Source: Mycobacterium sp. Marseille-P9652 (GTDB lineage: Bacteria > Actinomycetota > Actinomycetes > Mycobacteriales > Mycobacteriaceae). From it: DNA of 50,946 nucleotides. The DNA lies in assembly GCF_902652685.1 (NCBI RefSeq), contig NZ_CACRUY010000039.1:1-50946 (forward strand). Reading direction: 5' to 3'. The translations under genes were made by a program, and so were the position numbers. This document shows positions 7,426 through 47,616 of the stretch, in pieces. The stretch's first letter is position 1. Each line of letters starts with the position of its first letter. The notes beneath the pieces are model-generated. The model was given only the letters and a program-made list of their open reading frames with translations, did no database searches and had not been told where the DNA came from.

Positions 7426-7449
7426 CGGCGGGAGCTTTTTGGCCACCAC

Positions 7450-7455: not shown

Positions 7456-7487
7456 GGTGCACGCACCAAGACGATCGAAGGAGAGTT

Positions 7488-8390: not shown

Positions 8391-8400
8391 GAACGTCTCC

Positions 8401-9836: not shown

Positions 9837-9844
9837 CGCCGACC

Positions 9845-9890: not shown

Positions 9891-9914
9891 GCTCGGCGGC
9901 CCTCGGCGCCCACG

Positions 9915-9920
9915 TAGACT
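9915..9920 (+). promoter_or_regulatory. Probable -10 box of yebC
   Basis: TAGACT, the same hexamer as in front of pdxS, lies 43 bases before the yebC ATG; the leader contains AAGAGGAGAG as ribosome binding site. Confidence 0.45.
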
Positions 9921-9962
9921 CGTTGGGCGAAGTTTGATGCAAGAGGAGAGGTACACCACGCG

Positions 9963-30339: not shown

Positions 30340-30353
30340 CTTCGCAGAATCCC

Positions 30354-32962: not shown

Positions 32963-33001
32963 AGCATTTCAGTTGCTTAACCATTAATCAACTGAAATGC
33001 T
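32963..33001. promoter_or_regulatory. 39-bp palindrome, candidate MarR operator 1
   Basis: Perfect 13-bp arms AGCATTTCAGTTG (32963-32975) and its reverse complement (32989-33001), with an inner TTAA-CCA-TTAA. The core at 32968-32996 reads TTCA-N5-TTAA-N3-TTAA-N5-TGAA. It is strongly AT-rich and lies between the divergent mmpL (6 bases away) and idi2 genes, so binding would control both. The same layout is found twice before the crt operon at 47505 and 47588. Confidence 0.8.
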
Positions 33002-33128
33002 GTCCCCGAGCACTGGGCGAGCGAAGTTGCGCCGGGCGGCGCGCGGTGGAAGGCAAAATGGTGAGCATGCACTGGACGCGGGCGGCGAGCCCGCCGGTCA
33101 CCGGCCGAAGAGTCGCGGCGGGCCGGCC

Positions 33129-34169
33129 ATGAGCGCCGACCCGCGCGCGATGAGCACCCGCAAGCGACGGCACATCGACGTGTGCCTGACCGAGCGGGTC
33201 GACTACGAGGCGCTGAGCACCGGGCTGGAGCGCTACCGGCTGCCCTACAACGCGTTCACGCAGACGAACCTCGCCGACATCGACCTGTCCACCGAGTTCT
33301 TCGGCGCCGCGCTGCGGGCCCCGGTGCTGATCGGCGCGATGACAGGCGGCGCCGAGCTCTCGCGGACCATCAACCGCAACCTCGCGACCGCCGCCCAGCA
33401 ACTCGGCGTCGGGATGATGCTCGGTTCCCAGCGGATCATGCTCGACAGCGCCATGGGCGAGCGCGCGGCCCGCAGCTTCGCCATTCGCGACCTGGCTCCG
33501 GACGTGCTGTTGTTCGGCAACATCGGGCTGTCGCAGGTGACGAAGGCCGTCGTGCCGGACCTCGTGAAGGCCCTCGACCGGGTGGGCGCCGACGTGCTGG
33601 CGGTGCACACCAACCCGCTGCAGGAGGCCATGCAGCACAACGGGGACACCGACTGCACCGGGTCGCTGGGCAGGCTGCGCGAGGTCGCCGACGCGATCGG
33701 CTATCCCGTGCTGCTCAAGGAGGTCGGCCACGGGATCGGTGGGGCCGCCGTCGCGGAACTGCTTGGGGCCGAGGGCAATCTGCCGGTGGCCGGCATCGAC
33801 GTGGCGGGTGCCGGGGGCACCTCCTGGTCACGCGTCGAGCAGTTCGTCCGCTACGGCGAGCTGCGCTACCCGGACCTGGCGGACTGGGGCATCCCCACCG
33901 CGCGGGCGATCGTGGAGGTGCGCGAGGCCCTCCCGGGCGTCCCCCTGGTGGCGTCCGGCGGGATCCGCACGGGCATGGACGCGGCCAAGGCGATCGCACT
34001 GGGCGCCGACGTGGTGGCGATCGCCCGGCCGCTGCTGGCGCCCGCGATCGAGTCCGCGGCCGCGGTAGTCGACTGGCTGCAGCCGTTCCTCGACGAGCTG
34101 CGCGTCTGCCTGCACGGCTGCGGCGTGGCGGACGTCGCGGGCCTGCGCGCCGTCACCCCGATCCAGTGA
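33129..34169 (+). CDS. fni: Type 2 isopentenyl-diphosphate isomerase
   Basis: A 346-residue FMN-dependent TIM-barrel isomerase that interconverts IPP and DMAPP, the building blocks of carotenoids. Visible family blocks: [10 protein letters not shown] at the start, [11 protein letters not shown] (64-74), [27 protein letters not shown] (metal/substrate region), [27 protein letters not shown] and [20 protein letters not shown] at the flavin phosphate site. ATG at 33129 is chosen; a second ATG seven codons later is possible. It is separated from the glycosyltransferase by 7 bases. As mycobacteria make IPP by the MEP pathway, this isomerase likely adjusts the DMAPP/IPP ratio when pigment is made. 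Confidence 0.93.
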
Positions 34170-34176
34170 CTCCGAC

Positions 34177-35427
34177 ATGTCCGTGATCCTGGCGTACGGC
34201 TCGCCCAGCCTGGGCCACCTGCTGCCCATCGGCGCGCTGTTGCGCGAGCTCGCGCGGCGGGGCCACGAGGTGCACCTGCGCTCGATGTCCACCGGCGTCG
34301 CGACCATGCGCGCGGCCGGGGTGTATGCCGAGCCGGTCGACCCCGCGATCGAGGCGATCGTCGGGGAGGACTGGCGGGCCCGTAACGCGTTGGGGGTGCT
34401 GAAGCGTTCGATCGACGTACTGTGCCGGCGCGCCGTCCTGGAGGTCGGCGACCTGCGTCGCGCGGTGGAGGAGATCCGCCCCGACGCGGTCATCATCGAC
34501 GCGAACTGCTGGGGCGCGATGTCGGCGGCCGAGGCGGGATCGGTTCCGTGGCTGATCTTTTCGCCCTTCACCCCCTATCTGGCCTCCCGAGGGGTGCCGC
34601 CCTTCGGGCCGGGGATGCGGCCGCTGCCGGGCGTCGCCGGCGCCGTCCGTGACGCCTGCGTGCGCCCGATCGTGCGCTACCTGTTCGACGCGCCAATGCT
34701 GCCGCGGGTCAACGCGATTCGCGCCCGCCTGGGTGTGCCTGCGGTCGCTTCGGTCGACGAGTTCATGCGACGTGCGCCGCTGCTGCTTGCGGTCGGCGGT
34801 GAGCCGTTCGAATACCCGCACCCCGACTGGGGCGATCTGGTGCACCACATCGGGGCGTGCGTGTTCGAACCCTCGACCGCGAGCGCACCCGAGTGGGTGG
34901 AGGCCATCGACCGGCCGCTGGTGCTGGTGAACACCTCCTCGATCAAGCAGCCCGATTCCGCGCTCGGCCGAACGGCATTGCAGGCGCTGGCCGACGAGGA
35001 GGTGCACGTGGTGGCGACGTTCCCGGCGGGCGTGCCCCGGGACCTGCCGCGTCCCTCCAACGCCACCGTGTGCCGGTTCGTTCCGCATGCGGCCATCCTC
35101 GACCGGGCCAGCTGTGCGATCACCCACGGCGGAATGGGCACGACGCTCAAGGCCCTCGACCGCGGGGTTCCCGTGGTGGTGGTCCCCTTCGCGCGCGACC
35201 AGGCCGAGGTCGCCCGGCGCGTGCAGGTCGCCCGGTGCGGGGCTCGCCTGCCGGCCAGCAGGCTCACCCCGGACAGGCTGCGGGCCGCGGTCCGCACGGC
35301 GATCACGATGGCCGACGGCGCGCGCCGAGTGGCCGCGGGCTTCGCCGCGACGGGAGGCGTCGCGCACGGGGCCGACCTGATCGAGCAGCGGGTGCTCGGC
35401 TTCACCGCCGAGCGGCCGGTGCACTGA
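34177..35427 (+). CDS. UGT-like glycosyltransferase
   Basis: A 416-residue GT-B fold enzyme of family GT1. The N-terminal acceptor domain starts MSVILAYGSPSLGHLLPIGALL; the C-terminal donor domain has CRFVPHAAILDRASCAITHGGMGTT, with the HGG nucleotide-sugar motif near residue 316, then ALDRGVPVVVVPFARDQAEVARRV. Related enzymes glycosylate macrolides, sterols and carotenoids (CrtX). Its operon with idi2 and its shared operator with the crt cluster suggest a carotenoid or other isoprenoid acceptor. The stop directly abuts the convergent marR stop. Confidence 0.82.
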   Translation: MSVILAYGSPSLGHLLPIGALLRELARRGHEVHLRSMSTGVATMRAAGVYAEPVDPAIEAIVGEDWRARNALGVLKRSIDVLCRRAVLEVGDLRRAVEEIRPDAVIIDANCWGAMSAAEAGSVPWLIFSPFTPYLASRGVPPFGPGMRPLPGVAGAVRDACVRPIVRYLFDAPMLPRVNAIRARLGVPAVASVDEFMRRAPLLLAVGGEPFEYPHPDWGDLVHHIGACVFEPSTASAPEWVEAIDRPLVLVNTSSIKQPDSALGRTALQALADEEVHVVATFPAGVPRDLPRPSNATVCRFVPHAAILDRASCAITHGGMGTTLKALDRGVPVVVVPFARDQAEVARRVQVARCGARLPASRLTPDRLRAAVRTAITMADGARRVAAGFAATGGVAHGADLIEQRVLGFTAERPVH

Positions 35428-36015
35428 CTAGCGCGCGGCGCGCCGCCGGCCCCTGGTGGTGGCCGCCTTGGTCTCGGCGGCCTTCCCCTCGGCCACCCCG
35501 CCATTCTTCGCGGCCTTGGCGTGTTGCGAGAGCTCGGATTCGAAGTCGGCCATCGCCCCGATCATCGCCGTGAAGACGCGGTGGGCGGCGGCGAGGTCCC
35601 GGTCGGAGAGGCCCGCCAGCGCCGAATGCAGTTGCGCGCCAAGCGGAGTGAAGAAGGAACGGGCCAGCGCCATGCCGGGCTTTTCGTAGCGGAGCAGCGA
35701 CTTGCGCCGATCGCCCGGGTCGGGCTCGCGGCGGATGTGGCCGGACTCGATCATCCGGTCCACCAGGTAGGTGATCGCGGCCGGTGAGACGTCCATGCGC
35801 TGACGCAGCTGGGCCAGCGTCAGCGGTTCACCCGCCGTCTCGGCGACCATGATGTGCAGCAACGCGTGGAAGTCGCTGCCGCCGACGTCGTTCTGGCGGG
35901 CGAAGTGGCGGCCGATGCGGTCAGATTGCGCTGTGATGGCGCGCATGTCGGAAGACATGAGCTTTTCCAGTTCGGCACGGTCGAGTCGCCGATCAGTAGC
36001 GCCGCGCTTGGTCAC
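35428..36015 (-). CDS. MarR regulator 1 with basic tail
   Basis: A 195-residue MarR-family regulator. The winged helix lies at about residues 45-125, with DFHALLHIMVAETAGEPLTLAQL, MDVSPAAITYLVDRMIESGHIRR and the wing PGDRRKSLLRY; helices for dimerisation follow (ARSFFTPLGAQLHSAL). The last about 35 residues are rich in Lys, Ala and Arg (HAKAAKNGG... TTRGRRRAAR), like the tails of mycobacterial HU-type proteins, and would add nonspecific DNA affinity. It is a clear paralogue of the MarR gene at 47651. The probable target is the TTCA/TTAA operator set, but neither paralogue is proven to bind it. Convergent with the glycosyltransferase. Confidence 0.9.
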   Translation of the reverse strand: MTKRGATDRRLDRAELEKLMSSDMRAITAQSDRIGRHFARQNDVGGSDFHALLHIMVAETAGEPLTLAQLRQRMDVSPAAITYLVDRMIESGHIRREPDPGDRRKSLLRYEKPGMALARSFFTPLGAQLHSALAGLSDRDLAAAHRVFTAMIGAMADFESELSQHAKAAKNGGVAEGKAAETKAATTRGRRRAAR

Positions 36016-36173
36016 CTACCCGCATTCTTCTTAGAAGGTACGCCGCTCAGCGTATCGGTGACCGCGCGGTGCGGCCGACCCACGCTGTGGGCGTTTCTCT
36101 TTTCTCGTCGACGGTCAAGTGACAGTACTCGCCTCGCGGGCCGGTCGCGGCACCGGCGGCTCCAAACCGGTGG

Positions 36174-36506
36174 TCAGGTTTTGGCCGGGTCGTGCCCCCA
36201 GTTCATCAGCGAGTGGCGCCAGGCGGTGTCGTCGATGTTGCCCTTGGGCCGCTGCGCCAGGTGGCGCTTGGCGTACCCGACGACCTTGCGCATGTGCGCG
36301 TAGTCGTCGTCGGTGAGGTCGCCCTTCTTCGTGTGCAGTAGCTCGACGATGCGGCGGCCGCTGGCGTGACCGGTCGACTCGTCGCCGTCCCGTTTCTGTC
36401 CCACGCTCTGCGACTCGTCGGAATGCAGCCACTTCTCGAGCTCGCGTGCGGTCATGTTGACCGTCTCGTGGAAGCGGTCCCACGTGTCCTGGTCGTCGTC
36501 GGCCAT
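36174..36506 (-). CDS. DUF3140 domain protein
   Basis: A 110-residue soluble protein covering a whole DUF3140 domain: FHETVNMTARELEKWL at the start, then GRRIVELLHTKKGDLTDDDYAHMRKVVGYAKRHLAQRP, and a Trp-containing end (TAWRHSLMNWGHDP). The family is small, widespread in actinobacteria and proteobacteria, and of unknown function; the core resembles a helical DNA- or protein-binding unit. It follows the HVA1 gene by 12 bases, a common pairing, in a presumed minus-strand operon. Confidence 0.85.
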   Translation of the reverse strand: MADDDQDTWDRFHETVNMTARELEKWLHSDESQSVGQKRDGDESTGHASGRRIVELLHTKKGDLTDDDYAHMRKVVGYAKRHLAQRPKGNIDDTAWRHSLMNWGHDPAKT

Positions 36507-36518
36507 GGTGGTCTCCTG

Positions 36519-36734
36519 TCAGTCCGCGCGGCGCAGCGCGTCGGGCTTGTGCACCGCGTCGGCGCCCGTCTTGTCGCTGCGCACGAGGTATTGCGGGTCG
36601 TCCTTGGAGGCGCGCACCCTGCGCCCGGCCGCCTCCGTGTCGGAGGTGATCTTCCGCTCGACCGTTCCCTCGACCGTTTGGCCGTGGCTCTTCCACTCGA
36701 CCTTGTCGCCCTTGCGAAACGTCTTGTCGCTCAT
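36519..36734 (-). CDS. HVA1-type (DUF2945) small protein
   Basis: A 71-residue protein of the hypervirulence-associated HVA1 family with a Tudor-like fold: FRKGDKVEWKSHGQTVEGTVERKIT, then VRASKDDPQYLVRSDKTGADAVHKPDALRR. Such proteins are small and basic and are frequently next to DUF3140 genes; function is unknown, possibly nucleic-acid binding under stress. ATG at 36734 gives the family length; longer frames upstream are low-complexity. Confidence 0.85.
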   Translation of the reverse strand: MSDKTFRKGDKVEWKSHGQTVEGTVERKITSDTEAAGRRVRASKDDPQYLVRSDKTGADAVHKPDALRRAD

Positions 36735-36762
36735 GCCAATCTGTCCTTCACTCGAGTCGCTC

Positions 36763-38259
36763 TCAACAATGTGCGGGGGCTGCGGCGGCGGTGGTCCCGT
36801 GCCGTGCGGTGGCGGTGATGTCGCGCGCGATGCCCCCGAACACCGCCTCCCGGGACGGTCCCGACGCGCTCCACAACAGTTGTCCCGCAAGGCCGTACGG
36901 CTGGAACATCGCGCGCTGCCGGTAGAGGGAACCGCCGTTGCCGTCGGAGGCGGCGGACAGTTCCAGCCACAGGCGGCCCGGGAGCGGGATGTCGGCCCGC
37001 AGCCGCAGCCGCCGCGGGGCGTCGACGCGTTCCACCCGCCACCAGTCCAGTGCCTCGCCGACGTGCAACCGGTGCCCGTCCAGCGGCCGGCGGCGCGCCC
37101 ACACCACGCCGACGAGCCCGTTGATCCAGCCGCGCAACGGCCAGCCCAGGGGTGACACCGACCAATTGCGCTCGGCGACAGCGGTTTCGATGGCGCGCCA
37201 CAGAGTCGCCGGGTCGGTGGGGCTGCGGTGCTGGCGGACGTCGTCGTACAAAGACCCGCCGGCCCACTGCGGGTCGGTGGGCAGGGGCCGGGACGGCTCG
37301 CCGTTGGTCTCGGCGCGCGTCCACCGGGTGGACAGGTCGTTGTCCCGCGCGTGGGCCAGCGCGAGCTCGACGGCCTCCTCGTAGTGGGTGAGGCCGCCCT
37401 CCGGGTCGGGGATGTGGCGGGCGATGTCGCGGTCGCCGCAGACCACGTCGTTCTCGAGGGACTTCATCAGCGAGACGGCAAGCTGGCGGGGGATGGGGGT
37501 CAGCAGGTCCACCCATGGCGCCGAGAGCCGCGGCGTGAGCAACGGCACCGGCAGCGTCGGGCGCCTGGTGAGACCCGCGACGGCGGCGAATTTGCGGATC
37601 ATCTCCGTGTACGGGAAGCGGTCCGGGCCGCCGATGTCGAACGGCCGGTTGACCTCGGGCGGCAGCTCGGCCGAGTGCACCAGGTAGTAGAGCACGTCGC
37701 GCACCGCGATCGGTTGGACGCAGGTCTGCAGCCAGCGCGGCGTGACGATCAGCGGCAGCCGCTCGGTGAGGTAGCGCAGCATCTCGAAGCTGGCCGAACC
37801 CGCCCCGATGATCGCGGCCGCGCGCAGTTCCACGGTGGGCACGCCCGACTCCATCAGCACCTCGCCGACCTCGGCGCGCGACGCCAGGTGATCGGACAGC
37901 TTCTGGCCCTCCGGGATGATGCCGCCGACGTAGACGATTCGGGACACGCCGGCCTGCGCGGCGGCCCGGGCGACGGTGCGCGCGGCGCGGTGGTCGAATT
38001 CGACGAAGTCCGGCCGCATCAGCGAGTGCACCAGGTAGTAGAGAACCTGCTGACCCTCGAGCGCCGCACGGACGGTGTCGCCGTCGACGACGTCGCCCTC
38101 GACGACCTCGACGTCGCCGCGCCAGCTCACCGCGTCGAGCTTGGCCGGGTTGCGGGCCAGCACCCGCACGGTGTGCCCCTCCGACAGCAGCTGGGGGATC
38201 AGCCGCGTGCCCAGGTATCCCGTGGCGCCGAAGACGGCGCAGCGCAGCGAATCACTCAT
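36763..38259 (-). CDS. SDR oxidoreductase fused to DUF2867
   Basis: A 498-residue two-domain protein. The N-terminal domain (1-290) is an atypical SDR of the NmrA/NAD-binding type with CAVFGATGYLGTRLIPQLL at residues 7-25. The C-terminal domain (about 330-485) is DUF2867, SRPBCC-like, with WRVERVDAPRRLRLRADIPLPGRLWLEL. Comparable fusions occur in actinobacteria and cyanobacteria with no proven substrate. Its ATG overlaps the 3' end of the upstream gene by 8 bases. Stress-linked redox role is inferred only from neighbours. Confidence 0.87.
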   Translation of the reverse strand: MSDSLRCAVFGATGYLGTRLIPQLLSEGHTVRVLARNPAKLDAVSWRGDVEVVEGDVVDGDTVRAALEGQQVLYYLVHSLMRPDFVEFDHRAARTVARAAAQAGVSRIVYVGGIIPEGQKLSDHLASRAEVGEVLMESGVPTVELRAAAIIGAGSASFEMLRYLTERLPLIVTPRWLQTCVQPIAVRDVLYYLVHSAELPPEVNRPFDIGGPDRFPYTEMIRKFAAVAGLTRRPTLPVPLLTPRLSAPWVDLLTPIPRQLAVSLMKSLENDVVCGDRDIARHIPDPEGGLTHYEEAVELALAHARDNDLSTRWTRAETNGEPSRPLPTDPQWAGGSLYDDVRQHRSPTDPATLWRAIETAVAERNWSVSPLGWPLRGWINGLVGVVWARRRPLDGHRLHVGEALDWWRVERVDAPRRLRLRADIPLPGRLWLELSAASDGNGGSLYRQRAMFQPYGLAGQLLWSASGPSREAVFGGIARDITATARHGTTAAAAPAHC

Positions 38260-38665
38260 CGTGGTCGGGGGAGGCGGTATGGGCGGGGTGGCCGTGCGTG
38301 CGCCGGCGCTCCTTCATCCCGGCTTCGTGGAGGTGGCGGCGCCCGTCGGTGAGGGCGGTGCGCACCTCCCGTTCGATCTGTTGGAAGCAGCGGTAGTAGC
38401 CGTCGTCGTAGTCCTCGACGACCTGGAAGCTCCACCGGCCCGGCAGCACGTTGCGCCCGATCAGCTCGTCGGTGATGCGCTGCGCCAGGTCGGCCTGCCC
38501 CAGTTCGCGCAGCTTCGCCACCGCCTCGTCGAGCTGCAGATCGGCGCGGCCGGTAAGCTGGTGAAACGAATACAGGTGTCCGCGTGCCCGTTCGGTCGTC
38601 TCCAGCGCCTCGGTCACCTTGCCCACTGCCTGCGCGACGGCTTGGTCGTCACTGTCGTCGGTCAT
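38252..38665 (-). CDS. Hypothetical helical protein
   Basis: A 137-residue soluble protein, acidic at the start and His/Arg-rich at the end. It is mostly helical, with an HLYSFHQLTGRADLQLDEAV segment followed by ELGQADLAQRITDELIGRNVLPGRWSFQVVEDYDDGYY. I recognise it only as a conserved actinobacterial type without name. It is translationally coupled to the SDR-DUF2867 gene, so the two probably act together. A TTAA-rich palindrome lies about 75 bases upstream. Confidence 0.7.
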   Translation of the reverse strand: MTDDSDDQAVAQAVGKVTEALETTERARGHLYSFHQLTGRADLQLDEAVAKLRELGQADLAQRITDELIGRNVLPGRWSFQVVEDYDDGYYRCFQQIEREVRTALTDGRRHLHEAGMKERRRTHGHPAHTASPDHDE

Positions 38666-38741
38666 CGGTCTCCTCCCCGCGTGTCACCTGGATGACTTCC
38701 CAATGCGCACAGCCTCAATCGCAAAGGAGAATGAAGATCAG

Positions 38742-38761
38742 TTAAGAAACTTAATGATCAA
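38742..38761. promoter_or_regulatory. Degenerate MarR-like site
   Basis: TTAA-N5-TTAA-N3-TCAA in an AT-rich stretch upstream of the 38665 gene. It also contains the palindrome TTAAG-AAA-CTTAA. It matches two blocks of the 29-bp operator pattern exactly, one with a single change, and lacks the fourth, so it may be a weaker site or a different operator. Confidence 0.35.
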
Positions 38762-38808
38762 GAGATAGCGGATTCGGGCCCGGCCACGCTCGGGTGAGGG
38801 AGAGCGGG

Positions 38809-39141
38809 CTAGAGCGGCCGCAGGTTCTTCTTGGCCGCGCGGCGGAGCTGGATCATGCGGGCGGCCCCGACCAGCACGGTGGTGGTGGCACCCGCGACGG
38901 CGGCCAGCAGGTAGCCCACCCCGACCGGCAGGTTCCAGTCGAACATCAAGAAGTGCACGGCGACGTTGTCGGTGTTCTGGGCGACGAAGATCAGCAGGAT
39001 GATGAGGACGAGCAGTCCGAACACCAGCGCCCACCACGCGGCGGCGAGCCGCGTGAACGACGCCGCCCGGTTCGCCCGCGGCGGCACGGCGGTCGCGGGT
39101 CCGGGGGAGGCCGGGGAGGGGACGGACGGGTCAGTGCTCAT
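38809..39141 (-). CDS. LapA-type two-helix membrane protein
   Basis: A 110-residue protein with a disordered Pro/Ala-rich N-terminus (1-30), two transmembrane helices (WWALVFGLLVLIILLIFVAQN and VGYLLAAVAGATTTVLVGAA) and a basic end. The QNTDNVAVHFLMFDWNLPVGV loop is typical of LapA/YciS family (DUF1049) proteins, which help assemble envelope components in other bacteria. ATG at 39141 is chosen since longer frames are not conserved-looking. Confidence 0.82.
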   Translation of the reverse strand: MSTDPSVPSPASPGPATAVPPRANRAASFTRLAAAWWALVFGLLVLIILLIFVAQNTDNVAVHFLMFDWNLPVGVGYLLAAVAGATTTVLVGAARMIQLRRAAKKNLRPL

Positions 39142-39225
39142 GCCGCTGACTAGCCCTAAACGCGGTCGCCCAAACGCCCTGGGCGGTCGGGTTTGGCCGA
39201 CGATTGCGCGGGTTAACCGGTCGCC

Positions 39226-39474
39226 ATGGAATACACGGCGGCAGTGCGGCGCGTCCGGAACGGACAGAAGCGGGTGCTGCGCCTGCAGCGGCGCCTGTGG
39301 CTGGCCGAGTTGGCCCTCTGGCCGGCCGCCATCGCCTGCACGGCGCTGGTCGCGGCCGGCGGGTGGGTGTGGTGGCAACGCAGGTCGCGCGGCCGTCAAG
39401 CCGAGACGGCGGCCAACGCGTGGACGCCCGCCCCTGCACCCGATCCCGCCCCCGAACCGGCGGCCAGCGGGTAG
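39226..39474 (+). CDS. Small membrane protein
   Basis: An 82-residue protein with an arginine-rich N-terminus (RRVRNGQKRVLRLQRRL), one transmembrane helix (LALWPAAIACTALVAAGGWVWW) and a Pro/Ala-rich tail. Third codon positions are almost all G or C, supporting real coding. It is the only plus-strand gene between the LapA-type gene and the DUF2784 gene, whose stop is 6 bases away. No family recognised; inside-basic, outside-Pro/Ala topology is likely. Confidence 0.55.
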   Translation: MEYTAAVRRVRNGQKRVLRLQRRLWLAELALWPAAIACTALVAAGGWVWWQRRSRGRQAETAANAWTPAPAPDPAPEPAASG

Positions 39475-39480
39475 CGGTCG

Positions 39481-39840
39481 TCAGCCCAGGCGCCGGAACG
39501 CCAGCACCGCCCACGAGACGGCGGCGGCGACGAACGCCAGCGCCTGCGCGGCGCCCGTGCGGCCTGTCGGATACACGACGCCCGAGACGTAGCGGTCGAT
39601 GAAGCCCGTCTCCGGCAGCGGATTCATGCCGGCGCGCCGCCGCGCCCACGCTTCCAGGGCCGTCAGGGGGCAGGGCAGTTCCCAACCCACGACCGCGACC
39701 CCCCAGGCGACCACGGGCACGTGCAGCGCCATGGTCTTTGGCCAGCGCAGCGCGAGGAAGCCCCCGACCGGCAGATACATCAGGTAGGCGAAGTGGGCGC
39801 CGACGGTCGCGGCGACGGCGGCGGAGTACCCCTTCCTCAC
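39481..39840 (-). CDS. DUF2784 membrane protein, end of crt operon
   Basis: A 119-residue protein with three or four transmembrane helices and the DUF2784 pattern: AHFAYLMYLPVGGFLALRWP, WELPCPLTALEAWARRRAGM and TGFIDRYVSGVVYP. Function unknown. Its GTG start overlaps the Rieske gene stop by 4 bases (GTGA), which makes it the ninth gene of the crt operon. DUF2784 genes are widespread, so the link to carotenoids is by position only. Confidence 0.82.
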   Translation of the reverse strand: MRKGYSAAVAATVGAHFAYLMYLPVGGFLALRWPKTMALHVPVVAWGVAVVGWELPCPLTALEAWARRRAGMNPLPETGFIDRYVSGVVYPTGRTGAAQALAFVAAAVSWAVLAFRRLG

Positions 39841-40850
39841 GGCCGGTGCGGGGGCTGGGCTGAGCGCAACGCGTACCGGCGCTCGGCGTACGCGATGTCG
39901 TCGCGCCACAGGCGCGCCGCCGCGTACCGCATCAGCGGGGAAACCAGGGGCGCGACGCGCGACGCCAGTCGGAACCCGGGGCGATGCGAGTGCGCGATGG
40001 TGGCCTCGAGCACGGCCGTCCGCGGCCGACCATCGGGCCCCAAACCGATTGGGGTGGCGTGGGTTTCGACGGTGCTGCCCACGCCCTCGCCGTCCACGAT
40101 GCGCATCACGATGGTGCGCGCCTCCGGGCAGCTGAATTCGGCGATGACGGGCACGCCGAGGCGACCGAGCCGGAAGGTGACCGCGACGAGGAAGTGGTCG
40201 GCCTGCTCGGTGGGCGTGGTGAGCACCTCGAGCCGGGTGAACGAGTACGGGTGGAACCACGCGCCGTGCCACGGGTCGAGCCGGTTGGCGATGACGTCGG
40301 CCGGCTCGCAGACCCCGACCATGCCGGCGACGGCGACCATCGTGTCCCCGTCGGGTCGGGCCGGGATCACCGGCTCCTCCAGCGGCGCCTCGCCGCCCAC
40401 CTTGTCGAGCCGGACCCACACCAGCGCGCCGTCGTCGTGGCTGGGCAGCGGGTTCCAGCCGAACTCGCGCCGCGTGCCGTCGAGCGCGAGACCGTGCCAA
40501 CGGCACACCAGCGCCCCGTCGCACACGGCGCCGGTGGCCAGGTCGGCCCCGAGGTGGGGGCAGCTGCGCGGACCCACCCGCAGGCGGTGCAGGTCGTCGC
40601 GCCAGGCGACGACCTCGACGCCGGCGACGCGCGCGCCGAAGGGCCGGCCGGGCCGCACGTCGCGGCTGGCGGCGAACGCGTACCAGTTGCCGGTGGGCCT
40701 GCGCTGCGCGCGTCGCAGCGCGGACTCGATGATCGCGGGGTCGGCGTCCCGGTATGTCGGCCGCTGGCCGGCCCAGGATGTGCGCGGAATGACCTGCAGC
40801 GGTGGGTCTTTCGGCCACCTCCACCGGAGCTGTTCGCGGACGTTCATCAT
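39837..40850 (-). CDS. Rieske protein with DUF5914
   Basis: A 337-residue protein. A Rieske [2Fe-2S] domain at about residues 55-150 carries the complete ligand set C97-x-H99 (SCPHLG) and C116-x2-H119 (VCRWHG). The remainder (about 160-330) matches the mycobacterial DUF5914 type with a hydrophobic pocket-like domain. No mononuclear-iron facial triad is evident to me. It lies directly after crtU with a 4-base overlap, so a redox step in carotenoid ring modification, or electron supply to CrtU, is plausible. Uncharacterised. Confidence 0.83.
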   Translation of the reverse strand: MMNVREQLRWRWPKDPPLQVIPRTSWAGQRPTYRDADPAIIESALRRAQRRPTGNWYAFAASRDVRPGRPFGARVAGVEVVAWRDDLHRLRVGPRSCPHLGADLATGAVCDGALVCRWHGLALDGTRREFGWNPLPSHDDGALVWVRLDKVGGEAPLEEPVIPARPDGDTMVAVAGMVGVCEPADVIANRLDPWHGAWFHPYSFTRLEVLTTPTEQADHFLVAVTFRLGRLGVPVIAEFSCPEARTIVMRIVDGEGVGSTVETHATPIGLGPDGRPRTAVLEATIAHSHRPGFRLASRVAPLVSPLMRYAAARLWRDDIAYAERRYALRSAQPPHRP

Positions 40851-42385
40851 CGCCTGGCTCTTTCACGCGTGGCCAGCCTGCGCAGCAGCGGCGAGCGGCC
40901 TCGGGTGGGTACGGTCTGCAGCGGGTGACCCGCCAGTCCCCATGATCTCAGCAATTCGTTGGCTGCGCACCATCCGGTGGTGGCGGCGCGTTCCATCAGC
41001 GCCACCGGCAGGTCGACGCGGATGGCGTCCCCGGCCAGCAGCAGGCGGGGATGGGGCGTGACGACCCGCGGCCGGTGATCGTAGGTCCCTGGCGCGAACA
41101 GCGGGCAGTCCGCGCGTACCAGCGTCCGCTCGGAAACGATCTGTGCCGCTGCCGTTTCCGGGTAGATCCGGTGCAGCTGGCGCACCGCCTCGGCGCGGGA
41201 ATCCTCGAATTCCATTGCGTAGCAGTGTAGTTCGACGACGGAGCCGGCGTGCGCGCGGGCCCAGTCGGCGGCCTCGCGTTCGTAGCGCTCCAGCACGCTG
41301 ATGTTGTCCAGCGGCTTGTGGCCGGCGGTCCCTAGGAACGCCGGCCGGTCGGCGGCGACGGGGCGGTCGAGCCACAGCCGGTGCACGGCGAAGGGCGGGG
41401 CGATGCGCATCTGGGCGATCTGCGCGCGCCACGCCTCGCCGGACAGGCCATCTGAGGCGGCGACGATGCGCTGCAGGGCCGCGACGTCGGTGGCGAGCAC
41501 GACCGCGTCTGCGTCGAGGTGCTCGCCGGTGTCGGTGTGCACCGTGAAAGGCGCGCCGCCACCCGTCTCGACCCGCAGGGCGCCGGTGCCGAGCCGGAAC
41601 CGCACGCCGTGCTTCTCCAGGTAGCGCTGCAGCGGCCGCCAGAGGGCGGTGTCGTAGTTCGCGGTCGGGACGTCGAAGATGAGTCCCTCGCTGGAGCCGA
41701 GGAAGTAGATGTGGAACATCGCCGCCAGCTCGGCCGCCGACAGCTCCGACGGGTCGGCGAAGAAGCTGCGCGAGAACACCTCGAACGCCAGGTGGCGCGC
41801 CGCCTCGGGGAACCGGATGTCGGCGAGAAAGGTTGCGGCGTCCCGACTGTCGAGCCGCTCGTAGATCCCGGGGACCGACACCGCGGCCAGCGGCGCGGCG
41901 GCCCGGGCGTCGATGACCAGGAAGTCGCGCAACCGGAACGTCGGGCTGCGCGGGGCGAAGGCGACCGCGTTCCACGGCGGGCTCTGTGGCAGCCCGCGGA
42001 AGGTGTCGCGCCGGCCGTCGCCGTCGATCAGCGGGTAGTCGTCGACCGCGGTGAGCATGTCCAGCCGCGGGTCGATCCGGCCGAGCAGCGCGCGCAGGTT
42101 GTAGTACTGGCGGAAGAAGGCGTGAAACCCGCGATTCATGGCGAGTTCGGGGCCCGTCCCGTCGGCGTCCTCGGTCCAGCCGCCGACCCGGCCGCCCAGG
42201 TAGCGCTCGCGTTCGATCACCTCGACGTCGACGCCACGTTCGGCGAGCCCGGTCGCGGCGGTCAGTCCCGCGATGCCCCCGCCGACGACGACCACCCGCG
42301 GCCGAGATGGCAGCGCGGCGGCGTGGGGCAATCCGGCTGCGGCGGGCAGGGTTTCGCGGCGGCGGTCGGTGCCGTACTCAGTCAT
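40847..42385 (-). CDS. crtU: Carotenoid ring desaturase/methyltransferase CrtU
   Basis: A 512-residue FAD enzyme. The dinucleotide motif VVVVGGGIAGLTAATGL is at residues 31-47; the CrtU-type signature NRGFHAFFRQYYNLR at 84-98 and the C-terminal FAD motif LLLAGDAIRVDLPVALMERA are visible. CrtU converts the beta rings of beta-carotene to aromatic rings with a methyl shift, making isorenieratene (leprotene), a pigment known from mycobacteria and streptomycetes. ATG at 42385 overlaps the methyltransferase stop by 8 bases. The alternative is another FAD-dependent carotenoid oxidoreductase; the signature makes CrtU more likely. Confidence 0.85.
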   Translation of the reverse strand: MTEYGTDRRRETLPAAAGLPHAAALPSRPRVVVVGGGIAGLTAATGLAERGVDVEVIERERYLGGRVGGWTEDADGTGPELAMNRGFHAFFRQYYNLRALLGRIDPRLDMLTAVDDYPLIDGDGRRDTFRGLPQSPPWNAVAFAPRSPTFRLRDFLVIDARAAAPLAAVSVPGIYERLDSRDAATFLADIRFPEAARHLAFEVFSRSFFADPSELSAAELAAMFHIYFLGSSEGLIFDVPTANYDTALWRPLQRYLEKHGVRFRLGTGALRVETGGGAPFTVHTDTGEHLDADAVVLATDVAALQRIVAASDGLSGEAWRAQIAQMRIAPPFAVHRLWLDRPVAADRPAFLGTAGHKPLDNISVLERYEREAADWARAHAGSVVELHCYAMEFEDSRAEAVRQLHRIYPETAAAQIVSERTLVRADCPLFAPGTYDHRPRVVTPHPRLLLAGDAIRVDLPVALMERAATTGWCAANELLRSWGLAGHPLQTVPTRGRSPLLRRLATRERARR

Positions 42386-43106
42386 CGGGGGCGTCTGCGA
42401 GGAAGGTGTGAACAATGTTGGCCTCCCAGCCGGGCACCGTTTCGCTGCGCACGGCGGTGAAGCCGGCGTCGGCGAGGCGCTGCCGAAACTTCGTGGCGCC
42501 GTCGAAGGCCAGCACGCTGCGCCACAGGTAGCGGTACAGGCCCGCGTCGCGCGTGCGCCACCACCCGGACGGGATGATGATGCCCCAGCACACGGCGTGC
42601 CAGACGCAGGTGGCCACCCGGGAGTCGCCCACGGAGTATTCGTGCACGGCAAGCGTGCCGCCGGGGCGCAGCAGTTCGCGGAACCTGCGCAGCTGGCCGT
42701 CGCGGTCGTCGACATTGCGGATCAAGTAGGCGGCCAGGATGCCGTCGAACGGGCCGGTGACGCCGTGCTCGGCCAGTTGCTCGACGGGGGAGTGCACGAA
42801 CCGCACCGTCGCCGGCCAGTCCTTGGCGAGCGCGGAGTCGAGCATGCCCTTCGAGGCGTCCACGGCGACGATCTCGGCCTCGGGGGCGGCCGCGAGCAGG
42901 GCGGCCGTCGACGCGCCGGTGCCGCAGCCGGCGTCGAGCAGGCGTAATCCCTTGCCCCTGTTGGGTAGGTGCATGCGCCGTGCCGACAGGGCCAGGTGGG
43001 CGTGATAGCCCGGATTGGCGCCGACGAGGCGGTCGTAAGCCGCCGCCCCGGCATCGAACGCGGCCGACAGGTCGCCCCGCGGCACACCGAGTTCACCCAC
43101 GCGCAC
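42378..43106 (-). CDS. SAM methyltransferase of the crt operon
   Basis: A 242-residue class I methyltransferase of the UbiE/Methyltransf_11 type. SAM motif I LLDAGCGTG is at residues 56-64, motif II IVAVDASKGML follows, and DGILAAYLIRNVDD corresponds to motif IV. Streptomyces crt clusters encode a comparable methyltransferase (CrtT) beside crtU and a lycopene cyclase. Its substrate in carotenoid synthesis is not established. The GTG start overlaps crtYd by 14 bases, showing tight operon structure. Confidence 0.85.
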   Translation of the reverse strand: MRVGELGVPRGDLSAAFDAGAAAYDRLVGANPGYHAHLALSARRMHLPNRGKGLRLLDAGCGTGASTAALLAAAPEAEIVAVDASKGMLDSALAKDWPATVRFVHSPVEQLAEHGVTGPFDGILAAYLIRNVDDRDGQLRRFRELLRPGGTLAVHEYSVGDSRVATCVWHAVCWGIIIPSGWWRTRDAGLYRYLWRSVLAFDGATKFRQRLADAGFTAVRSETVPGWEANIVHTFLADAPDD

Positions 43107-43404
43107 GTTGCCGTTCCCAGAGCAGGAGCACCGCTGTGACGAGGGCGAAGCCGAACAGGAAATCTTCGACGGGAATGTCGAACGGGAAGCGCACGCCGCT
43201 GGTCTGGCGGTCGTCGTAAATGACGACGGGGGCGCTCAGCTTGGTCAGCCACCCGTCGACCGGCACCTGGAAGCCCAGGACGATGAGCATGGACAGCCAG
43301 TAGGCCGGCCGCCGGAACAGGCCGGTGCGCAGCACCGCCAATTCCATTGCGCAGACCGCGATGACGGCCACGACCGCCGGCACTGTGTAACCCAGTCCGG
43401 TCAC
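43093..43404 (-). CDS. crtYd: Lycopene beta-cyclase subunit CrtYd
   Basis: A 103-residue three-helix membrane protein, the second half of the heterodimeric actinobacterial lycopene cyclase. Family parts are VDGWLTKLSAPVVIYDD and VRFPFDIPVEDFLFGFALVT, where the PxE(E/D) motif in a helix is needed for ring closure. GTG at 43404 is set by the 4-base overlap with crtYc. With CrtYc it converts lycopene to beta-carotene in the membrane. Confidence 0.9.
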   Translation of the reverse strand: MTGLGYTVPAVVAVIAVCAMELAVLRTGLFRRPAYWLSMLIVLGFQVPVDGWLTKLSAPVVIYDDRQTSGVRFPFDIPVEDFLFGFALVTAVLLLWERQRARG

Positions 43405-43724
43405 CGCTGGCGGACCTTCCCGAGGATGGTGCTGACGGCGTTGTAGGTCAGCAGGCCGCAGATCGGGATCACGAGAAAGAACAGCACCTCCTCGATCGGC
43501 ACGTGGACGGGCACGCTCAGGCCGCTGATGTAGGCGGCGCTGTAGGTCCACACGTGCGCGGCGACGGCGATCTCGTCCCAGACGAGGAACACGGCCGCGA
43601 CCGGCAGGACGGAGACGGCGAGGCGCCGCCACTGGCGGTAGACACCCGGACCGAACAGCTCGAGCGGCGCGGTGACGGCCAGACATGCGGCGAGAACCAG
43701 AAGGTACTGCCACCGATCGCTCAT
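43401..43724 (-). CDS. crtYc: Lycopene beta-cyclase subunit CrtYc
   Basis: A 107-residue three-helix membrane protein forming the first half of the heterodimeric lycopene cyclase. The conserved motif VHVPIEEVLFFLVIPICGLLTYNAV includes the PIEE acid pair; the VFLVWDEIAVAAHVWTY region is also typical. The ATG overlaps the crtB stop by 4 bases. In some fungi and archaea the two halves are one protein. Confidence 0.92.
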   Translation of the reverse strand: MSDRWQYLLVLAACLAVTAPLELFGPGVYRQWRRLAVSVLPVAAVFLVWDEIAVAAHVWTYSAAYISGLSVPVHVPIEEVLFFLVIPICGLLTYNAVSTILGKVRQR

Positions 43725-44680
43725 GCGGCTCCCGAATTCCGGGGATCAGGGACGTTTGCCGCGCTGCCGCGCGCCCGCCACGACCGTATCAGCCCGACAC
43801 CGGCGACCTGCAGCCGTCGAGCCTTGCCGACGGTGGCCCGGTGGCTGAACACGGCGAAGTCGCTGGCCTCGATGCGGTCCAGGATTTCCGAGTACAGCTC
43901 CGACGCGGTCGCGACGCACGGGCGGGAGCGGGGCGCCAGCGTGGCGATGCCCGCGTCGGCGAAACGGTATGTGTCGCGCGTGATTTCGTGCTGGGCCGCC
44001 AGGGCCTCGCGCACGCGCGGTTCGGTGCGGCGGTTGCGGTGACACCACATGAGCAGGTCGCGGTCGACGCCGTGGGCCGCGAGCTCGTCGGCCGGCAGGT
44101 AGACCCGGCCGCGCAGCAGGTCCTCGTCGACGTCGCGCAGGAAGTTGGTGAGCTGGAACGCCCGGCCCAGCCCGGCGGCGTAGGGCGCCGCCTCCTCGAC
44201 GGGCACCACGGTGCCGAGGATCGGCAGCACCTGCAGCCCGATGGCCTCCGCGGAGCCGCGCATGTAGAGGTTGAGCGCCTCGCGGTCGGGATAGTCGGTG
44301 ACGGTGAAGTCCATCCGCATCGACGCGAGGAAGTCCTCGAACAGCGCGGCGTCGATCCCGTACCGCCGCACCGTGTGGAGGACGGCGGTCAGCACCGGGT
44401 CGCCGGCGTGGTCGCCGGCGAAGAACCGGTCGGTGAGTTGCTGCAGCCGCTCGGCGCGGACGTCGGTGCCCAGCGCCGGGTCGAGGTCGTCGAGGATGTC
44501 GTCGGCGTAGCGGGCGAAGCCGTACAGCGCGTGGATGCCCGGCCGTTGGTCGGGCGCCAGCAGCCGGGTGGCCAGAAAGAACGTCCGGCCGTGCGCGGCG
44601 TTGAGTTCGCGGCAGCGGCGGTATCCCTCGCGCAGGGCGGGATCGTCGATACCGGCCGCGTCCAGTTCGCTGCGCATCAT
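43721..44680 (-). CDS. crtB: Phytoene synthase
   Basis: A 319-residue squalene/phytoene synthase that joins two GGPP molecules to phytoene. Two aspartate-rich motifs that bind diphosphate through magnesium are seen: DDILD at 60-64 and DVDED at 183-187, with YGFARYAD and RGRVYLPADEL around them. Two adjacent ATGs exist (44680 and 44677); the first is listed. Start and stop overlap crtI and crtYc, so it is translated as part of the operon. Confidence 0.96.
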   Translation of the reverse strand: MMRSELDAAGIDDPALREGYRRCRELNAAHGRTFFLATRLLAPDQRPGIHALYGFARYADDILDDLDPALGTDVRAERLQQLTDRFFAGDHAGDPVLTAVLHTVRRYGIDAALFEDFLASMRMDFTVTDYPDREALNLYMRGSAEAIGLQVLPILGTVVPVEEAAPYAAGLGRAFQLTNFLRDVDEDLLRGRVYLPADELAAHGVDRDLLMWCHRNRRTEPRVREALAAQHEITRDTYRFADAGIATLAPRSRPCVATASELYSEILDRIEASDFAVFSHRATVGKARRLQVAGVGLIRSWRARGSAANVPDPRNSGAA

Positions 44681-46215
44681 GGCAATCCAGCTTTCATGTC
44701 GATCTGCGTCGGCCTGCGGTCAGCCCGCCCGCCGTCTGGTCCGGTGACGCGGTCGGCGGCCAGCCGCCCCGAGATCAGCGCGGTGGGCACGCCCACACCG
44801 GGGACGGTGGACGACCCGGCCAGCACGGCGTTCTCGATTCCGCGCACCATGTTGCCCGGGCGGAACGGGCCGGTCTGCCCGAACGTGTGGGCCAGCGCGA
44901 ACGGGCTGCCGGCCGCCATGCCCTGGCGGGCCCAGTCGGCGGGGGTTACGACGTCGAGGACGGTCGCGTCCTCACGGAGGTGGGGCAGCAGCCGGTCGGT
45001 CACCTCGTCGATCATCGTCTCGGTGTAGGTGTCGCGGACGGCGGCCCAGTCGACGGTGCCGCGCTCGAGGTTGGGCGCCGGGGCGAGCACGTACAGCAGG
45101 TCGCGGCCGGCGGGCGCGAGCGTGGGGTCGCTGGCCGTCGGCCGGGTGACGAGCAGCGACGGGTCCCGCATCAGCCGCCCGTCGCGGATGATGTCGGTGA
45201 ACGTCTGGTTCCACTCGTCGCCGAACAGGATGGTGTGGTGCGGCGTCGGGGGCGTGACGGCGCGGCAGCCGATGTGGGCCACCACCGCCGACGGCGACGG
45301 CCGCAGCCGCAGCAGCCGCCGCGGCGTGCGGCCGAGCAGTGCATACGTCTGGGGCAGTTCGGTGGTGAGCACCACGGCGTCGCACGGAATCCGGCCGGTT
45401 TCCTGCGTGCGCACGGCGCTGACCCGGCCGGCGGTGCGTTCCAGGCCGGTGACCGTGGCGCCGTAGCTGAACCGCACACCGGCATCGACCGCGGCGGCGG
45501 CCAGCGCGTCGGGCAGGGCCCGCACACCGCCGCGGGGGAAGAACACGCCCGAGATGGTGTCCATGTAGGCGATGACGGCGTAGGCGGCCAGCGCGTCGCG
45601 CGGCGCGACGCCGGCGTACAGCGACTGGAATGTGAAGACCCGCTGCAGGCGGTCGTCGCTGATGTAGCGCCGGACCATGCGCCCCCACTTGCGGAAGCCG
45701 CCGATCGCGGCGAGTCGGGCCAGCTGCGGGGTGAGCAGCGACAGCGGGGAGTCGAAGTTGGCGGAGATGAACCCGTCGAACTCGACGCGGTACAACCGCT
45801 CCAGCCACTCGCGCAGCCGCTGGTAGCCGGCCGCCTCACCGGCGCCGGCGAACTCCTCGATCGCGGCCGTCATCCGCGCGGCGTCGGAGTGCACGTCGAT
45901 CGCGCTGCCGTCGGCGAACGCGGCGCGGTAGGCCGGGTCGACCGGCAGCAGCTCGAGCCGGCTGGACCGGTCCTCGCCGACGGCGGCGAAGACGTCGTCG
46001 ATGATGTCGGGCATCGTCAGCACCGTCGGGCCCGTGTCGATGCGGTAGCCGTCGACGTCGAGCCGCCCGGCCCGCCCGCCCGGCCACGGGTTGCGCTCGA
46101 CGACGGTGACCGCGCGGCCCCGGCCCGCCAGGTGCAGCGCCGCCGCCAGCCCGGCCAGGCCGGCGCCGACGACCACCACGTGGTCGCCTCGTCCCTCGAT
46201 GGTCCGCATGGTCAC
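44677..46215 (-). CDS. crtI: Phytoene desaturase
   Basis: A 512-residue FAD-dependent desaturase/isomerase that converts phytoene to lycopene in four steps. It has VVVVGAGLAGLAAALHLAGRG near residues 13-33, the GGRAGRLDVDGYRIDTGPTVLTMP segment and the C-terminal bacterial-type FAD motif AVLAGSSTVPGVGVPTALISGRLAADRV. The start ATG lies 21 bases after the crtE stop; its stop overlaps crtB. Confidence 0.96.
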   Translation of the reverse strand: MTMRTIEGRGDHVVVVGAGLAGLAAALHLAGRGRAVTVVERNPWPGGRAGRLDVDGYRIDTGPTVLTMPDIIDDVFAAVGEDRSSRLELLPVDPAYRAAFADGSAIDVHSDAARMTAAIEEFAGAGEAAGYQRLREWLERLYRVEFDGFISANFDSPLSLLTPQLARLAAIGGFRKWGRMVRRYISDDRLQRVFTFQSLYAGVAPRDALAAYAVIAYMDTISGVFFPRGGVRALPDALAAAAVDAGVRFSYGATVTGLERTAGRVSAVRTQETGRIPCDAVVLTTELPQTYALLGRTPRRLLRLRPSPSAVVAHIGCRAVTPPTPHHTILFGDEWNQTFTDIIRDGRLMRDPSLLVTRPTASDPTLAPAGRDLLYVLAPAPNLERGTVDWAAVRDTYTETMIDEVTDRLLPHLREDATVLDVVTPADWARQGMAAGSPFALAHTFGQTGPFRPGNMVRGIENAVLAGSSTVPGVGVPTALISGRLAADRVTGPDGGRADRRPTQIDMKAGLP

Positions 46216-46236
46216 TCCGATACCACCTTCGTCATG

Positions 46237-47352
46237 TCAGACGGCCCTGTCGGTGCAGGCGGCCGCCATGTTGTGCAGCGCGGCGCGCAGCGCGTCGTCG
46301 ATGCCCAGGTCGTCGATCTGCTCGCGCGCCGACGCGACGCGCCCACTGATCATCTCTTCTATCAAGTCGGCCGCGCCGGTGGCGGCGATCAGGCCTTTCC
46401 ACCGGTCGATCGCGGCGTCGTCGAGGCGCTCGGCGTTCATCAGCTCGCCCATCTCCCTGCGGGCGGACGCGTCGGCCAGTTGGTAGGCGGTGACGACGAC
46501 GCTCGTCGCCTTGCGTTCGAGCAGGTCGCCGGCGTTGGGCTTGCCCGTCGTCTCCGGGGTGCCGAAGACGCCCAGCAGGTCGTCGCGAAGCTGGAAGGCC
46601 TCGCCGACGGCGTCGCCGTAGCGGCCGAGGTGCGCGAGGGTCCGCTCGTCGCAGTCGGCCATCGCCGCGCCGATCTCCAGCGGACGGCGCACCGTGTAGT
46701 TGCCCGACTTGCGCCTCGCCACGTCGAGCACGGTCTCCAGCGACGGCAGGCAGCGGACGTCGTTGGCCAGATCGGCGAACTGTCCCACCGCGAGTTCGGT
46801 GCGCATGGCGTCATAGCGCCGGCACACCCGCTGAAGGCTTTGCGGATCGGGGATGTTTTCGCGGAGCATCTGTTCGGCCCAGATCAGGCACAGGTCGCCC
46901 AGCAGGGTCGCCGCGGATTCGCCGAACCGCCAAGCCGAGCCCGACAGGCCGCGCCGGCGATGCCAGTCGGCGAATTGCAGGTGCGCCGCGGGCCGGCCGC
47001 GCCGTTCCGCGGATCCGTCCATCACGTCGTCCTGCAGCAGGGCGAAGGCGTGCAGCAACTCCAGGCTCGCCGCGGCCTTTAATGCCGCGCGGTTCGGCGC
47101 GGCCCCGCACAGCCAGCCCAGGTACATGAAGGTCGAGCGCAGGCACTTGCCGCCCGAGACGAACTCGACGAGCACGTCGCCCGCCACGTCGACCCCCGTC
47201 CCGGCCAGGTCGGTGACCCGGCGTTCGGCGACGAACTCGGCGACCTCGGCGAGGACGGCGCGCCGCACCCCCGACCGCCAGCCGTCGAAGTCGTCCGTGT
47301 CAGGCCAGGTGGGCACCGCCCGGGTGGCGGTCCTCAATGTCAAAGCACGCAT
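46237..47352 (-). CDS. crtE: Geranylgeranyl diphosphate synthase
   Basis: A 371-residue trans-prenyltransferase supplying GGPP. The first aspartate-rich motif DDVMD is at 108-112 (LLQDDVMDGSAERRG) and the second, LRDDLLG, near 256-260, the form usual in actinobacterial GGPP synthases. The residue set upstream of the first motif (SLELLHAFALLQ) has small and large side chains compatible with C20 product. The N-terminus is about 20 residues longer than some homologues, so a later start is possible. First gene of the crt operon, about 150 bases from the nearer operator. Confidence 0.92.
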   Translation of the reverse strand: MRALTLRTATRAVPTWPDTDDFDGWRSGVRRAVLAEVAEFVAERRVTDLAGTGVDVAGDVLVEFVSGGKCLRSTFMYLGWLCGAAPNRAALKAAASLELLHAFALLQDDVMDGSAERRGRPAAHLQFADWHRRRGLSGSAWRFGESAATLLGDLCLIWAEQMLRENIPDPQSLQRVCRRYDAMRTELAVGQFADLANDVRCLPSLETVLDVARRKSGNYTVRRPLEIGAAMADCDERTLAHLGRYGDAVGEAFQLRDDLLGVFGTPETTGKPNAGDLLERKATSVVVTAYQLADASARREMGELMNAERLDDAAIDRWKGLIAATGAADLIEEMISGRVASAREQIDDLGIDDALRAALHNMAAACTDRAV

Positions 47353-47504
47353 TCGCCCACGCGCTCCCTTCCGGATGGTTCGGCTTCGGCAGGCTCCAAC
47401 GGCTCAAACACCGCGGTCATACCCCCGGTCGACGGGGGCAAAACCGCGACGTCCTCGCTGACCGCCGGGCCCTGTCGACGTACACGATGGGTCAAGCTCG
47501 TAGG

Positions 47505-47533
47505 TTCAATTTCTTAAAGATTAATTTAGTGAA
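47505..47533. promoter_or_regulatory. Candidate MarR operator 2 (crt promoter)
   Basis: TTCA-N5-TTAA-N3-TTAA-N5-TGAA, a 29-bp palindromic layout identical in spacing to operator 1 at 32968-32996. AT-rich in a GC-rich genome, between crtE and marR 2. Suitable for repression of the crt operon promoter. Confidence 0.75.
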
Positions 47534-47587
47534 GGTCATCCTGCACGGTCGACGGAGGGTGGGATTGGTGGAGCTGCCCAGCCGCCG

Positions 47588-47616
47588 TTAAGCGACTTAA
47601 CCGTTAACGAACTGAA
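47588..47616. promoter_or_regulatory. Candidate MarR operator 3 (marR 2 promoter)
   Basis: TTAA-N5-TTAA-N3-TTAA-N5-TGAA, one base different in the first block. Its right part CTTAACCGTTAA...AACTGAA closely follows operator 1 (CTTAACCATTAA...AACTGAA). It ends 34 bases before the marR 2 ATG, consistent with autoregulation. Confidence 0.75.

Follow-up and report, generated by a model that had tools for sequence, protein, structure and literature searches.

The window analysed here, a 50,946-nucleotide stretch of DNA from Mycobacterium sp. Marseille-P9652, carries a carotenoid (crt) gene cluster, two genes for MarR-family proteins (marR1 and marR2) and three copies of a 29-bp element with the layout TTCA-N5-TTAA-N3-TTAA-N5-TGAA, which we refer to as operators 1 to 3 (Table 1). 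Operator 1 (TTCAGTTGCTTAACCATTAATCAACTGAA) separates the mmpL2-tspO-phr genes from idi2 and a glycosyltransferase (GT) gene, with the mmpL2 ATG 11 bp away, and operators 2 (TTCAATTTCTTAAAGATTAATTTAGTGAA) and 3 (TTAAGCGACTTAACCGTTAACGAACTGAA) lie between crtE and marR2. Pattern search and direct reading gave 0 mismatches for operators 1 and 2 and 1 mismatch for operator 3, just as an earlier note on this DNA had reported; the gene neighbours are also those named there, with identities that agree with Pfam and NCBIfam. The 39-bp palindrome that the note had described around operator 1 was located at 32963-33001 and is self-complementary at 34 of its 39 positions. Operator 3 is 34 bp ahead of the marR2 ATG and is predicted to serve marR2 autoregulation.

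We propose that CrtR-type MarR repressors use the three sites as operators, each made of two boxes, at which bound repressor would block the promoter until a joint, light-linked release; we put the probability of this reading at roughly 0.87. Beyond the three sites, nothing in the window came within 3 mismatches of the 29-bp pattern, and 100 dinucleotide shuffles of the window yielded 0 matches. Across the whole genome (5,703,981 bases in 128 contigs) the pattern was found at 6 places at ≤3 mismatches, compared with 3 for a backwards-read control, and at ≤1 mismatch only at the three window sites. The earlier note had judged chance occurrence very unlikely and had suggested such a genome-wide search, in which frequent random matches were not seen. 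We also scanned the window with a position weight matrix (PWM) built from the sites of loci L007-L141, so that the scores of those loci are not independent whereas the pattern and box counts are. After the three operators, the scan returned one candidate, half-degenerate site at 38742, which is weakly kept (>5 bits in 5/40 relatives), and the next score was -3.9.

Table 1. Operator sites and genes of the window (positions as in the window; ORF, open reading frame).
Feature	Position	Strand	Evidence or details
Operator 1, between mmpL2-tspO-phr and idi2-GT	32968..32996		boxes 32968-32980 and 32984-32996; PWM 49.1 bits, two exact 13-mers
Operator 2, crtE side	47505..47533		boxes 47505-47517 and 47521-47533; PWM 48.2 bits
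Operator 3, marR2 side	47588..47616		boxes 47588-47600 and 47604-47616; PWM 31.8 bits
Candidate fourth, half-degenerate site, upstream of genes leading to marR1	38742..38754		one exact box, TTAAGAAACTTAA; PWM 9.2 bits
marR1, convergent with idi2/GT	35428..36015	-	Pfam MarR_2 50.4 bits (cut-off 27)
marR2, MarR family, mmpL2-linked lineage	47651..48145	+	Pfam MarR_2 46.7 bits (cut-off 27); tree
mmpL2, MMPL-family transporter	30824..32956	-	Pfam MMPL 337.1 bits
tspO	30354..30827	-	Pfam TspO_MBR
phr, DNA photolyase	29011..30546 (ORF as listed)	-	Pfam DNA_photolyase, FAD_binding_7
idi2/fni, type 2 isopentenyl-diphosphate isomerase	33129..34169	+	TIGR02151 327.2 bits (cut-off 281.3)
GT	34177..35427	+	Pfam EryCIII-like_C, UDPGT
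Rieske/DUF5914 protein	39837-40850	-	Pfam
Flavin adenine dinucleotide (FAD) amine-oxidase-family protein	40847-42715	-	Pfam
Methyltransferase	42378..43106	-	Pfam Ubie_methyltran
Lycopene cyclase part	43093..43713	-	Pfam Lycopene_cyc
crtB, phytoene synthase	43721..44680	-	Pfam SQS_PSY
crtI, phytoene desaturase	44677..46215	-	TIGR02734 519.9 bits (cut-off 238.1)
crtE, polyprenyl (geranylgeranyl diphosphate, GGPP) synthase	46237..47352	-	Pfam polyprenyl_synt

To define the operator from relatives, we used 84 mmpL2-marR intergenic regions retrieved by protein or by location, having excluded from 102 regions the 18 found only through pattern-fetched loci. The 13-mer TTMA-N5-TKAA was present at ≤1 mismatch in 80 of the 84 and exactly in 66, against a mean of 0.43 and a maximum of 3 for letter-shuffled regions. 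Two boxes 16 bp apart were found in 51 regions (shuffled mean 0.01), and every pair of exact boxes (41/41) had this spacing, with other regions holding one good box alone, often the mmpL2-proximal one. Because single boxes persist in relatives and exact pairs are spaced 16 bp, the 29-mer is, on this comparison, two 13-bp boxes of the form TTMA-N5-TKAA with starts 16 bp apart, and an indivisible 29-bp operator is ruled out. Outside the mmpL2-marR regions the spacing has an exception: the mmpL1 promoter of locus L268 contains a third exact box 9 bp from the second.

The 39-bp palindrome consists of operator 1 and two outward-facing AATGCT hexamers. Promoter hexamers were scored in 74 of the 102 mmpL2 promoters, where the hexamer that begins at the final A in the mmpL2-side box reads AATATT in 24, AATGCT in 21 and AATAGT in 6, with T at the last position in 96%. 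The letters 17 bp upstream, which are partly fixed by the left box, are TTGATT in 42 and TTGCTT in 8, and the first ATG or GTG follows 6-7 nt past the hexamer in 46. We interpret these hexamers as putative -10 and -35 elements with a leaderless start and the operator over the spacer, an arrangement that would allow steric repression. Read in this way, 32963-33001 would hold divergent promoters, TTGATT-N17-AATGCT on the minus strand for mmpL2 and TTGCTT-N17-AATGCT on the plus strand for idi2, and a promoter facing both ways would account for the extension of the palindrome to 39 bp. The mmpL2 transcript of the window is probably leaderless.

Conservation across the genus followed the presence of a CrtR-like protein. 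The site was found at ≤1 mismatch in 65/148 genus genomes, compared with 1/148 for the reversed control pattern, and a CrtR-like MarR protein (E≤1e-20) is encoded in 100/148. All 65 genomes with the site encode the homologue and none of the 48 genomes without the homologue has the site (Fisher p 1.9e-16, with near relatives not independent). The gene contexts were equally consistent: all 30 loci kept from a gene-blind pattern search, whose other matches were not fetched, lie beside mmpL2/marR, crtE, mmpL2/idi2 or phr, and the same contexts recurred in 79 loci from named records fetched by their MarR proteins. A site was present upstream of crtE in 34/35 regions, nine of which had been fetched by the pattern itself, and upstream of idi2 a score of ≥10 bits was reached in at least 25/51, among the matches listed. 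Upstream sites were found for phr in 2/49 and for tspO in 9/52, both genes mostly following others within an operon. In L054, L056 and L027 (Mycolicibacter and others) the operator stands between phr and tspO, not ahead of mmpL2.

Further sites lie outside the window. A looser two-box pattern was found in the same genome at 13 places at ≤3 mismatches, versus 4 for a control, and at ≤1 mismatch at four places, namely the three window sites and C26:25336-25364. The latter stands ~155 bp ahead of a gene with 68-74% identity to mmpL1 of crt operons of the published type, and it overlaps the end of an LCM-methyltransferase gene. Among 30 mmpL1-like loci fetched, 16 have a site; the rest comprise 4 inside a crt operon, 1 without a site and 9 paralogues of 63-65% identity. 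Another place, C51:17210-17238 (2 mismatches), precedes a gene for a Trp-halogenase/lycopene-cyclase-like FAD protein that is followed by a type I polyketide synthase (PKS); one of its outer arms deviates (TGTA or GTAA), and a site of this type scored >6 bits in 10/30 fetched homologues, its own included. mmpL1 and the halogenase-like/PKS operon are predicted to be further targets elsewhere in the genome. We rejected a 3-mismatch place on C50, where near-identical letters recur in three of nine other genomes, as coding sequence would show, and a looser-pattern place on C32 that falls inside an open frame. The remaining looser-pattern places are on C8, C2, C12 and, twice, C29. As a lead only, C38:24527-24555 (L284) has a single exact box 6 bp ahead of a small gene, presumably F420/PPOX-like, with 77-79% relatives directly after marR2 in two Mycolicibacter genomes.

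MarR1 and MarR2 share 57% identity, both exceed the Pfam cut-off for MarR_2, and both genes are linked to crt and/or mmpL genes. A quick tree was made of 169 homologues, with no characterised CrtR sequence among them. It placed MarR1 in a clade of 54 members (support 100), together with the CrtR of genomes having the published M. kansasii gene order. MarR2 fell outside this clade, in a lineage linked to mmpL2, and the eight copies divergent from crtE, MarR2 among them, formed one group. Tree and gene order together make MarR1, rather than MarR2, the probable orthologue of the known mycobacterial CrtR. Across the 169 homologues the helix-turn-helix and wing residues T79, R84, D99 and R101 are conserved at 1.00 and Y80 at 0.96. 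Eight genomes whose sole CrtR homologue (E≤1e-20) belongs to the MarR1 clade still carry sites, and where the single homologue is of the mmpL2-linked kind, sites are present at mmpL2/marR; since single-homologue genomes of either kind carry boxes, both paralogues probably read the same box.

These results bear on the alternative that survives best, although we consider it unlikely: that there are two regulons, with MarR2 controlling mmpL2-tspO-phr and itself, and MarR1 (CrtR) controlling crt and idi2, through operators that are similar and not interchangeable. Two paralogue lineages with differing gene neighbourhoods would fit such a division, as would the N5 letters of the crtE sites, which are unlike those of the mmpL2 sites. 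However, genomes with one homologue keep sites at crtE and mmpL2 alike, the recognition-helix residues are common to both proteins, and in the window mmpL2 and idi2 have one site in common and marR2 adjoins crtE.

To ask which loci a MarR1-type CrtR would control, we turned to nine genomes whose CrtR belongs to the MarR1 clade, since neither M. kansasii nor M. marinum was among the returned loci by name. The order crtE-I-B-Y-mmpL1-crtR-idi2 was found in seven of the nine, in one split over two contigs, and G161 and G219 have crtR-idi2 only at that locus. The crtE operator was present, with 0-2 mismatches, in 7/7 genomes showing crtE there. mmpL2 was found in 8/9, on another contig or megabases from crt, and was followed by tspO and phr in 8/8. 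An exact box lies 17-18 bp before the start of mmpL2 homology in 7/8, and mmpL2 two-box scores were 9.4-31.2 bits in 7/8, including L211, the eighth mmpL2 locus. At the remaining locus, L217, mmpL2 has one exact box only, and a complete operator lies 1.5 kb upstream, at a MarR2 gene. At L128/L217 (G237:C1:1885327), an exact operator and a MarR2-like gene stand beside a gene that we judge by its sequence to be serine-hydrolase/beta-lactamase-like and that separates both from mmpL2. The idi2 two-box score exceeded 10 bits in 4/9 genomes. The fasciclin genes had an operator in 0/16 loci, with a best score of -4.0 bits, and were rejected as regulon members. Because boxes are present at mmpL2 and no sites were found at the fasciclin genes, direct action of CrtR is predicted at the crt and photolyase loci, and none at the fasciclin genes.

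A further possibility is that some other regulator, such as a B12-dependent CarH/LitR protein or a third MarR, reads the sites and merely co-occurs with CrtR, which would act elsewhere. Indeed, the association between CrtR and the sites is partly linkage, because the crtE, mmpL2 and CrtR genes co-occur. We nevertheless regard this explanation as improbable. The divergent mmpL2-marR pair, usually with a box between, occurs in ten other genera of the family, and 19 of 20 hand-picked distant loci keep the pair. Among the window proteins scanned, a subset of the total, none was CarH-like, and the genome was not searched for CarH/LitR. In addition, the CrtR target of Corynebacterium glutamicum, pieced together from printed primers, includes a single exact 13-mer box with the essential TTAA as its left arm; this is a short match in AT-rich DNA and weak evidence alone. 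Finally, although the sites are palindromic, AT-rich and intergenic, the idea that they are chance palindromes or terminator-like hairpins in GC-rich DNA with no regulatory role has a negligible probability and is ruled out by the shuffles, the conservation of the sites at the same promoters across the genus and the fixed box spacing.

Several observations weigh against the proposal that the sites are CrtR-type operators. In 35 genus genomes there is a CrtR homologue yet no site at ≤1 mismatch, and in the other genera many sites are degenerate or single. Among the nine test genomes, five have a weak or absent idi2 site (0.7 bits or less), and the mmpL2 box of L211 is damaged by a one-base change in spacing. 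Within the window, marR1 has only the half-degenerate site upstream, and in crtE promoters we identified no -10 element at a fixed distance.

On balance, the comparative evidence strongly supports one shared MarR-type control over the crt genes, idi2-GT and mmpL2-tspO-phr. The single MarR regulon put forward in the earlier note is therefore supported in part, as to shared control, but its one 29-bp operator gives way to two boxes and the predicted regulon extends past the window, with an operator at an mmpL1 gene on another contig. In the mechanism that we envisage, one repressor dimer would occupy each 13-bp box, two boxes making an operator. At mmpL2 and idi2 the operator would sit within the promoter, covering the -35 element and reaching the -10 hexamer, such that in the dark or without inducer the repressor would block RNA polymerase; the same block is proposed at crtE, at marR2 and, elsewhere in the genome, at mmpL1. 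Light would then lead, probably through a metabolite, to release of the repressor, and carotenoid synthesis, precursor supply, export and DNA photorepair would be switched on together. The sequences themselves show the sites, their two-box build, their conservation, their gene contexts and their association with CrtR homologues; binding by MarR1, MarR2 or both, the promoter positions and the light or metabolite signal are what we infer in this scheme.

Repression of carotenoid genes by CrtR-type regulators is known (PMC5401885, PMC7432914, PMC6739363, PMC9861118), and the comparisons that follow draw on the accessible parts of these papers. In M. kansasii, mutation of crtR leads to derepression of crtE, mmpL1 and fni, and 20 min of light induces 14 genes, including the crt locus, phrB-tspO-mmpL2 and fasciclin genes; whether CrtR controls genes beyond carotenoid metabolism was left open there, and an M. 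marinum CrtR mutant is cited in the same paper (PMC9861118). The window resembles these systems in that marR1 groups with the CrtR proteins of genomes with the M. kansasii gene order and, like them, is convergent with the idi2 side, and its genes match the light-induced set, phrB-tspO-mmpL2 included (PMC9861118). It differs in having a second paralogue, MarR2, and mmpL2 adjoining idi2, and the main text of PMC9861118 gives no operator (0 occurrences each of 'motif' and 'palindrom'). In C. glutamicum, CrtR is an autoregulated MarR repressor beside the crt genes that needs TTAA for binding, and GGPP is reported to release CrtR binding there and in some other actinobacteria (PMC5401885, PMC7432914, PMC6739363). 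Here, too, the crtE promoter operator contains TTAA. Unlike the one-site regulon described for C. glutamicum (the crt operon, its own gene and perhaps cg0726), where phrB is not largely affected by light, the window organism has several loci with double boxes. LitR/CarH proteins are also reported to control carotenoid genes in a light-dependent manner but are B12 regulators of the MerR family, not MarR proteins (PMC6739363). The literature searched, with most subscription papers and supplements outside its scope, contained no report of a mycobacterial CrtR operator or of a link to the photolyase locus. The earlier note had called the regulon apparently undescribed, which holds for the operator and the direct link, but not for CrtR repression of crtE, mmpL1 and fni or for light induction of crt and phrB-tspO-mmpL2, which are published for M. 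kansasii (PMC9861118). What is new is the predicted multi-locus, double-box, two-paralogue CrtR regulon.

Regarding the other genes of the window, the true start of phr is probably near 30340, because the Pfam match starts at residue 72 of the listed ORF, and we take the FAD amine-oxidase-family protein to be crtU-like. Positions 3165-10718 contain CDP-alcohol phosphatidyltransferase, lipid A-type acyltransferase, group 1 glycosyltransferase, NUDIX, SNO glutaminase and YebC genes, presumably the pimA/pdxT region conserved in mycobacteria. Scanning the window against Rfam and for tRNAs gave no matches.

We tentatively suggest a history, itself somewhat doubtful, in which CrtR first regulated the MmpL2 exporter and not pigment, with crt, the isopentenyl-diphosphate isomerase, TspO, photolyase, mmpL1 and the halogenase-like/PKS operon recruited later through the same operator, and CrtR duplicated in slow-growing mycobacteria to give two copies reading the same boxes. 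The presence of the divergent mmpL2-marR pair in ten other genera is the basis for this suggestion. If it is true, two signals could feed one photoprotection regulon.

On the question that PMC9861118 raises, the operator predicts directly that photolyase, TspO and MmpL2 are under CrtR and the fasciclin genes are not, and it provides a search motif for the CrtR regulon in other mycobacterial genomes. Its position in front of pigment, precursor, transporter and photorepair genes, in this Mycobacterium and many relatives, suggests that one kind of repressor switches on a light-protection kit jointly. Photochromogenicity has been used for classifying mycobacteria (PMC6739363), and the operator is a candidate for the DNA element through which it would become a coordinated response.

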